From contig NZ_LT907988.1 in assembly GCF_900089455.2 (NCBI RefSeq), positions 3,100,001 through 3,164,000 of the forward strand: a stretch of DNA of 64,000 bases, in the 5' to 3' direction. The notes below the pieces were generated by a model, which made no database searches, had not been told where the DNA came from, and saw only the letters and a list, made by a program, of their open reading frames with translations. Below are positions 52,707-62,318 of this stretch, piece by piece. How positions within the stretch are numbered: the first letter of the stretch is position 1; each line of letters begins with the position of its first letter. The DNA comes from Orrella dioscoreae. GTDB lineage: Bacteria > Pseudomonadota > Gammaproteobacteria > Burkholderiales > Burkholderiaceae_B. A program made the translations under genes and the position numbers.

Positions 52707-52744
52707 ACGCCCCAAGGCCGGACACGGCTTGGGGCGTTTTTTTG
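52707..52744 (+). terminator. Intrinsic terminator of acnB
   Basis: ACGCCCCAAG/CTTGGGGCGT stem, extended inward by CCG/CGG, followed by TTTTTTT. Confidence 0.92.
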
Positions 52745-52796
52745 TTTGGATGACGAAATGCACCGACGTCATGCAATTCGATCCACTCGAGTTTTT

Positions 52797-52837
52797 TTCG
52801 AATAATTCGAATAATTCGAATATTTCGATGATATAGT
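52797..52837 (+). promoter_or_regulatory. Tandem 9-bp repeats and extended -10 of the toxin-antitoxin module
   Basis: Four tandem 9-bp units begin TTCGA: TTCGAATAA (52797 and 52806), TTCGAATAT (52815) and TTCGATGAT (52824). They end in TGATATAGT, an extended -10 (52829-52837), about ten bases before the antitoxin ATG. This layout fits an iteron-like operator for autoregulation. AT content is far above that of the flanks. Confidence 0.65.
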
Positions 52838-52846
52838 TTCTGCATC

Positions 52847-53377
52847 ATGCCCAAGACCATCCAGACTCCTCGTGCCAACCTGACCAAGTCCAAGTCCCCG
52901 AAAACAGCGGTCCTCCCCCCTGTTGCGGACAGACCCGCGCCGAAGACTGCGTCGGTGACCGCGCTACACGGCGGTGCCCTGCATGTCTCCGTCGAGGTCG
53001 CTCCCTTGCTGGATATCGTGCGCAAACACGTGCGCACACTGACCCAAGCCAAGGAACGAGCCATCCGAGAGGAGTTCGTCCAGATTTTCCAGTTGGCACT
53101 GCCTGCACAAGCAAGGACATCAGACCAAGCGATGTCGCAAAACACCTCCGACCCTGTGCTTACCAGCCAAGAAGCGGCGGATCTGGTAGGGGTGTCTCGC
53201 CCGTATATGGTCGCGCGTATCGATGCGGGCGACGTGGCATTGCATCGATGGGTTGGCAATCAACGGAGAGTGCTGACATCCTCCGTCCTCGCATGGCAAC
53301 AAAAAGAGCAGGCAGGCAAGCAGCGCGCAATGCAAAAGTTGGGCGCGCTACTCGACGACGAAATATTCTCCAGTTGA
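52847..53377 (+). CDS. Antitoxin with excisionase-like HTH (predicted)
   Basis: The 176-residue product has a disordered Lys/Pro-rich N-terminus (1-40), a middle helical part (about 47-90), and a C-terminal excisionase/MerR-like HTH at about 104-150: L-T-S-Q-E-A-A-D-L-V-G-V-S-R-P-Y then R-R-V-L-T-S-S-V-L-A-W. This domain is common in antitoxins paired with PIN toxins. The next gene, 8 bp on, encodes a PIN protein. The base composition is less GC-rich than its neighbours, consistent with transfer. No Shine-Dalgarno precedes the ATG, and the -10 position suggests a leaderless or nearly leaderless mRNA. Confidence 0.72.
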   Translation: MPKTIQTPRANLTKSKSPKTAVLPPVADRPAPKTASVTALHGGALHVSVEVAPLLDIVRKHVRTLTQAKERAIREEFVQIFQLALPAQARTSDQAMSQNTSDPVLTSQEAADLVGVSRPYMVARIDAGDVALHRWVGNQRRVLTSSVLAWQQKEQAGKQRAMQKLGALLDDEIFSS

Positions 53378-62068: not shown

Positions 62069-62318
62069 GGCGGACTCCATATCGGATAGCGGCGGGCTTG
62101 GCGCATGGCGCCGGACTCGCCCTGATGAAGAGATTGTCCGAGTTTTCCTTATCGCAATAAACCGGGCAGCTTTGTTTTGTCTATTTCATTTTTCAGCACA
62201 ATGAACCGACGGCGGCGGCGCACCGCTCCTGCGCGGGCGCCCGCCTGCGTTTGGCGTCATCCCCCGGGTCGGAGCGGTAAACTAGCAAGTTCAGCTTCCT
62301 TTTCCTGGTTTACCGACA

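Follow-up and report, generated by a model that had tools for sequence, protein, structure and literature searches.

A gapless array of 9-bp direct repeats as the candidate operator of a divergent MerR-PIN-type operon

In the 64-kb stretch of Orrella dioscoreae DNA analysed here (the window), four 9-bp direct repeats lie immediately before an operon that encodes an antitoxin-like protein with a winged helix-turn-helix (HTH) domain and a PIN-fold protein, and repeats of the same kind, spacing and direction accompany the antitoxin genes of most of its relatives. We consider it probable that this array is an autoregulatory operator, on which the antitoxin forms a head-to-tail coat over an extended -10 promoter. 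The two genes of the operon fall among the MerR-PIN systems, which Makarova, Wolf and Koonin predicted in 2009 to be type II toxin-antitoxin systems. These combine a PIN protein with a neighbouring MerR-like HTH protein that is truncated and has a small N-terminal part, and they are enriched on plasmids; more usually, PIN toxins are partnered by RHH, AbrB or Phd proteins (PMC2701414). A paper from 2023 still calls for tests of MerR-PIN function (PMC10669575). Our literature search, limited to open-licence papers, found neither a tested member nor a description of a MerR-PIN operator, and the sections of the 2009 paper used here give none (PMC2701414).

Results

The array reads TTCGAATAA TTCGAATAA TTCGAATAT TTCGATGAT from 52797 to 52832, without gaps and with period-9 identity at 24 of 27 positions, much as the initial annotation had described it. 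It is the top 27-position match for periods 7 to 12 across the whole window, and has a TRF score of 57; in two simulations of local composition, each with 100,000 first-order Markov sequences, no sequence equalled it. The register common to the relatives (Table 1) begins one base before these first-described units. The units had been thought to drift progressively toward the promoter; instead, the first three are nearly alike and the single diverged unit is the last. The overlap of that last unit with the -10 box was correctly seen, base 52832 being common to TATAGT and unit 4 as first delimited, and the TG of the extended element lying inside the unit. Elsewhere in the window, two weak unit-like matches stand 9 bp apart at 62173-62194 (scores 9.55 and 9.48).

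Table 1. Features of the operon and its upstream region (positions within the window).
Feature	Position	Strand	Basis
Intrinsic-terminator-like hairpin with T7, end of the gene taken to be acnB	52707..52743	+	Fold of -26.2 kcal/mol, z -4.92
Candidate operator, four 9-bp direct repeats TTTCGAATA/ATTCGAATA/ATTCGAATA/TTTCGATGA	52796..52831	+	Register common to relatives
Likely extended -10, TG-A-TATAGT	52829..52837	+	By eye from the sequence; TATAGT at 52832-52837
Antitoxin-like protein, 176 aa; variable N-terminal part and C-terminal excisionase/MerR-like winged HTH	52847..53377	+	Pfam HTH_17 8.4e-9; NCBIfam excise 1e-7
Winged-HTH domain with long last helix, residues 101-176; expected repeat binder	53147..53374	+	Predicted model, fold matches
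PIN-fold toxin-like protein, 186 aa	53386..53946	+	NCBIfam RSP_2648_fam_PIN 3.6e-17, 62.9 bits, under the cut-off of 170

The likely -10 element predicts a transcript start at about 52844-52846, and hence an mRNA that is leaderless or nearly so. By eye, a -10-like hexamer lies 6 to 9 bp upstream of the ATG in the window and, at a distance of 6 to 7 bp, in six of its seven subfamily relatives (L003, L004, L181-L183 and L185, the exception being L180), so that the mRNAs of these relatives may also be leaderless. Unlike the window subfamily, many relatives show AGGAG in their leaders, again by eye. In many of the relatives' alignments, the last unit merges into a TATAAT-like -10, as it does in the window. 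Between 52600 and 54100, a simple consensus scan found no sigma70-type -35/-10 hexamer pair, and no RNA element matched Rfam at the gathering score. The gene upstream, recognised from its sequence, is presumably acnB. The terminator-like hairpin at its end was found by folding and is not in the plus-strand output of a simple scan; because this hairpin and its T7 lie between the two, the promoter of the operon is separated from acnB. The G+C content of the operon is 57.8%, against 66% for the preceding gene and 67% for the window, and the operon is single-copy in its genome, which together suggest that it was acquired.

A few relatives carry other tandem tracts, with units of 6 to 8 bp, between the operator and the antitoxin start (L075, L078, L082 and L171). 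The CACTGAG tract of L075 has 11.9 perfect copies, the tracts of L078 and L082 have 6.8 and 4.2 copies, and in the leader of L171 the unit AAACCG is repeated imperfectly, in about 24 copies. These are possibly hypervariable leaders.

Relatives were gathered through protein similarity only. A search of genome contigs with the window antitoxin alone gave 58 candidate stretches and no confirmed relative; a search with alignment A1 did bring relatives. Of 133 loci with an antitoxin match, 127 remained after six were dropped (L001 and L163, which are the window again; L158, with no upstream DNA; L143 and L164, with an internal stop; and L069, with 28 bp upstream), and 111 after removal of near-identical upstream sequences. 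This set draws on the best 80 of 474 relatives and on 30 antitoxin places that became loci. In the genomes searched, the window's genus is represented by its own genome alone, and comparison loci were taken from the same family and order.

In the 250-bp upstream regions of these 111 antitoxin genes, T[TG]CG pairs 9 bp apart occur 197 times, as against 10 times in 207 control stretches from the same loci. Distances of 7, 16, 18, 25 and 27 are likewise raised; on the opposite strand of the upstream regions, distance 9 occurs 14 times and distance 18 ten times. A motif obtained by EM from a TTTCG seed, with 108 loci as training set and the window and its two nearest loci left out, came to T[AG]TT[TG]CG[AT][AT]TA, with TTTCGNWTA as the unit. 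This held-out motif ranks the window's four units 2, 3, 1 and 7 among 127,976 window positions. The initial annotation had named the lack of the repeats in other copies of the module as a refutation, and this check turned out in its support: an exact 9-bp gap between units is found upstream of the antitoxin in 107 of the 111 non-redundant relatives (all except L005, L085, L115 and L165), compared with 0 or 1 of 111 in 20 shuffled sets. At least two units are scored in 108 of the 111, at least three in 88 and at least four in 71. All the motif-based counts for these relatives, that of the exact gaps included, are partly circular, since 108 of the 111 loci had served to train the motif; the T[TG]CG spacing count and the held-out sets described below are not. 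Beyond Proteobacteria, arrays are scored in Cyanobacteria (L087, L103 and L128), Planctomycetes (L099, L101 and L129) and Chlamydiae (L106).

The commonest architectures are 9-7-9 (27 of 111) and 9-9-9 (23, the window included), and just one 9-bp pair is found in 19. Architecture follows the antitoxin tree: the split between "only 9" and "9-x-9" arrays takes 4 changes, versus 18 to 30 in 200 label shuffles, on a quick tree of 70 labelled leaves with long branches, the window's among them.

At nine loci (L090, L097, L099, L114, L134, L137, L145, L156 and L166), no PIN gene was found within 1 kb (L099 retains only part of that distance), and all nine keep at least two units. The array therefore goes with the antitoxin, which makes the antitoxin its likely binder. 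Short PIN pieces only are found at L059, L076, L081, L149, L154 and L115, where the array likewise persists. Loci of both kinds would be either decayed modules or orphan antitoxins.

The array also appears in sets held out from the motif. Twelve plasmid modules, taken from 12 of 53 plasmid records, were fetched via the toxin protein; their sources are Rhodococcus (two), E. coli, Enterobacter, Pantoea, Vibrio, Sinorhizobium, Methylobacterium, Methylocystis, Deinococcus (two) and Hymenobacter, which span Actinomycetota, Deinococcota, Bacteroidota, and Alpha- and Gammaproteobacteria. Nine of the twelve have at least two units 9 bp apart, with L170, L172 and L173 falling under the threshold; by eye, L170 shows no units, and L172 (Methylocystis) and L173 (Deinococcus gobiensis) show TTTCACTTA-like pairs in which CA replaces CG. 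When 151 genomes of the window's own bacterial family were searched at the DNA level, nine loci emerged besides that of the window. Those with an antitoxin-like protein, found through the DNA of the gene, have the array in five cases out of five, and the three without an antitoxin match have no 9-bp unit pair above 8 bits. L184, an antitoxin-PIN pair with an array, was left out of the tests because it had been found through the array itself. A DNA search of plasmids with the whole module gave no match.

A search with NF046100 brought up mostly PIN genes that have no HTH partner, and these served as a negative control: of 33 such genes with no partner detected, none has the array. No unit pair lies at the three other HTH_17 genes of the genome. 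Going in the other direction, from array to module, is less dependable. A strict three-unit pattern, which also misses the window's own array, had an antitoxin downstream at two of its three matches in 300 genomes and at 6 of 43 loci in viral contigs; at 29 of the remaining 37 viral-contig loci the array lies over a stop-to-stop frame longer than 90 codons. In viral contigs, the array pattern alone is thus a poor predictor of the module. One viral contig (IMGVR_UViG_2648501770_000001; L227) has six consecutive full 9-bp units before an antitoxin gene.

The AlphaFold2 model of the antitoxin is confident over residues 101-170 (pLDDT block means of 94 to 98). The 100 residues before the HTH are mostly of low confidence, with one helix at 52-83, and align poorly to the main MerR-PIN family, from whose N-terminal region that of the subfamily differs. 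The MerR-PIN family is characterised by the lack of Wing 2 and of a long dimerisation helix. In the window protein no further domain follows the HTH; in the model the last helix spans 144-175, well beyond the BldC-equivalent end, and could dimerise the antitoxin. The top Foldseek match of the HTH is the BldC-DNA complex 6ama (E 0.016, probability 1.00, 1.7 Å over 49 columns), followed by Xis 4j2n and RdfS 8dgl, every E-value being at or above 0.001. In VIA-align, the best chain was 6hn7 (Z 8.7), and BldC (Z 7.0) was level with many MerR-type domains, some of which bind palindromes as dimers. Sequence searches of the PDB with the antitoxin and with alignment A1 gave only unrelated chains up to an E of 1, so that the link to BldC rests on the predicted fold. 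The sole PADLOC match of the antitoxin was a weak one to mad1 (E 0.0011), and in PHROGs it matched the excisionase and regulator family phrog_66 (E 0.00025). Three residues where the recognition helix starts, S117, R118 and P119, do not vary among 46 aligned antitoxins, and because of this we infer that R118 is the likeliest reader of the CpG.

The PIN gene starts after a gap of 8 bp. The model of its product (AlphaFold2 mean pLDDT 87.4) matches the PIN proteins PAE2754 (E 6.5e-4) and VapC4 in Foldseek, and four acidic residues, D8, E41, D95 and D126, are invariant across 25 aligned sequences. Pfam PIN_3 matches 22 of 23 aligned toxins, and the window protein is without a Pfam PIN match. Its MerR-like HTH, by Pfam and by fold, and the adjacent PIN-fold protein are what the window pair shares with the MerR-PIN systems; it differs from them as a divergent subfamily, with a toxin that shares 23-30% identity with 22 main-family toxins (66% with the two nearest to it) and with another antitoxin N-terminal region. 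VapBC modules likewise have a PIN-domain toxin, here by predicted fold, but the window antitoxin is a winged-HTH protein encoded beside direct repeats rather than an RHH, AbrB or Phd protein. A second PIN protein in the genome (G000:C1:1316415-1316948; L056) is closer to NF046100 (147 bits), and its locus has no antitoxin match and no array. On the E. coli plasmid pRHB39-C22_3 (L168), a MerR-PIN module is followed after about 0.6 kb by a pair annotated as VapB antitoxin and PIN protein, so that two PIN systems stand in tandem.

Discussion

How might the repeats be read? BldC binds 9-bp direct repeats head to tail, one protomer per repeat; four protomers bind a 36-mer that contains four of them (PMC5859096). 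The BldC repeats and those of the window are both 9-bp direct repeats, AT-rich and then with a CG core (whiI opt CAATTCGGACAATTCGGACA, window AATTCGAATAATTCGAAT; PMC5859096), and both proteins have a MerR/excisionase-type winged HTH. With residue equivalences taken from an ungapped offset of 93 in VIA-align, Glu16, Val23, Gly44, Arg47 and Arg48 of BldC are kept as E109, V116, G137, R140 and R141, and Leu43, in the head-tail core, becomes Val136, which is hydrophobic. Arg22, Lys26, Arg30, Trp31 and His46, in contrast, are replaced by Gly115, Pro119, Ala123, Arg124 and Gln139; Arg30 and Lys26 read bases in BldC, Arg30 at a C-G pair, where the window has Ala123 and the aligned relatives mostly K or Q, with some G, S and E. 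BldC is also a 68-residue developmental regulator, whereas the window antitoxin has a 100-residue N-terminal part and is encoded in a PIN operon. Because the fold and some residues match but these five differ, we suggest from the model only that the antitoxin works like BldC with base-reading residues of its own; we do not claim that it belongs to the BldC family. A related fold is shared by Xis (Pukovnik, 4j2n) and RdfS (8dgl), which differ in being recombination factors. Head-to-tail oligomers have been described for RdfS and lambda Xis, and for RdfS the sections of that work used here report that its authors found no consensus motif (PMC11963761).

By analogy with what has been measured for BldC, a step of 9 bp agrees better with head-to-tail binding of winged HTHs than with a dimer on each unit. 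We propose that the C-terminal winged HTH would bind every 9-bp unit in one orientation, with the recognition helix at the invariant CpG and the wing in the AT-rich minor groove. Head-to-tail contact between neighbouring protomers would then make binding of the four units cooperative. Such a coat would cover about -49 to -14 and, because the extended -10 promoter overlaps the array, would block RNA polymerase there; expression of the antitoxin-PIN operon, with its presumed toxin, would thereby be kept low.

A uniform 9-bp filament, however, leaves unexplained the 39 of 111 relatives with 9-7-9, 9-8-9 or 9-6-9 arrays, which suggest that pairs are the basic unit in much of the family. Because of these arrays and of the possible dimerising helix, the strongest rival is that the antitoxin binds the 9-bp units in pairs, as a dimer held together by its N-terminal region, its long last helix or the PIN toxin; the 9-9-9 array of the window would then be two abutting pairs, with no filament. 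It fits this alternative that the smallest common unit is the pair, with only two units in 19 of 111 and two pairs separated by a 6- to 8-bp step in those 39, and that helices 52-83 and 144-175 of the model could dimerise. It fits less well that the exact 9-9-9 arrangement occurs in 23 of 111, that a few arrays are longer (for example, the six full units of L227), and that all seven subfamily relatives have by eye three units, an odd number, although for most of these relatives the motif scan counts just two. A symmetric dimer would also need flexible linkers to reach two sites facing the same direction. Weighing these points, we regard pair binding as possible but rather unlikely, and continue to favor the head-to-tail coat.

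The initial annotation proposed that each unit can itself be a dyad; a homodimer would then bind each one. There is a precedent in RptR, whose operator of three 9-bp repeats with a TAGCTA palindrome is bound cooperatively by dimers (PMC12255303). The resemblance extends to tandem 9-bp repeats in a promoter and to repression that acts cooperatively on an island carrying a toxin-antitoxin system, whereas RptR acts as a homodimer on a 6-bp palindrome and is a tri-helical HTH-like protein, set apart here by its description (PMC12255303). In the window, TTCGAA is present in units 1 to 3, but unit 4 has TTCGAT instead. Across the family, a palindrome of the RptR type within each unit is not conserved: only 64 of 381 units have TTCGAA, and in 61 of 108 arrays no unit has it; the TTTCGTTTA-type unit, unlike the TTTCGAATA-type, is non-palindromic. 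Complementarity about the CpG, for three pairs, is 0.318, 0.304 and 0.100, versus 0.344, 0.303 and 0.096 under independent columns, and the orientation of the units is strongly one-way (396 sense versus 33 antisense). On these orientation and symmetry counts we reject a dyad in each unit as very improbable. With TTCGAA rare and symmetry not in excess, the palindrome in the window is best seen as a by-product of TTTCGAATA being one of the allowed units. What survives of the initial proposal is an operator read by several antitoxin molecules: given its recurrence in the relatives, the array is very probably the operator of the toxin-antitoxin operon, even though its units are not dyads.

That the repeats are a product of chance or slippage in AT-rich promoter DNA, with no operator role, is scarcely credible: short tandem tracts do arise by slippage, unrelated ones lie in some relatives' leaders, and 29 of 37 antitoxin-less viral-contig loci have an array over a long frame, but unit, spacing, orientation and place are constant in 107 of 111 relatives, and both the 33 PIN genes without an HTH and the held-out tests speak against it.

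This study supplies the missing cis-element for a toxin-antitoxin family that is widespread and has been a prediction since 2009. Arrays have now been found in Proteobacteria, Cyanobacteria, Planctomycetes, Chlamydiae, Actinomycetota, Deinococcota and Bacteroidota, and the reading proposed here ties the MerR-PIN family to the way in which BldC, Xis and RdfS read DNA. With the motif it is also easier to locate start codons, decayed modules and antitoxins that stand as orphans. The common description of antitoxins is of dimers that bind palindromes; if our reading is correct, an antitoxin that reads its operator head to tail would be a different way of setting toxin-antitoxin expression, and the effects of unit number and phase become directly testable. 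One can envision, more tentatively and with somewhat less than even confidence, that the whole family represses itself through head-to-tail antitoxin polymers on 9-bp repeats, with the number and phase of the units setting the switch and the PIN protein capping or breaking the filament. If so, conditional cooperativity would operate via a filament rather than via palindrome-bound dimers, and the phase of the repeats, 9-9-9 or 9-7-9, would be part of how the switch is set.
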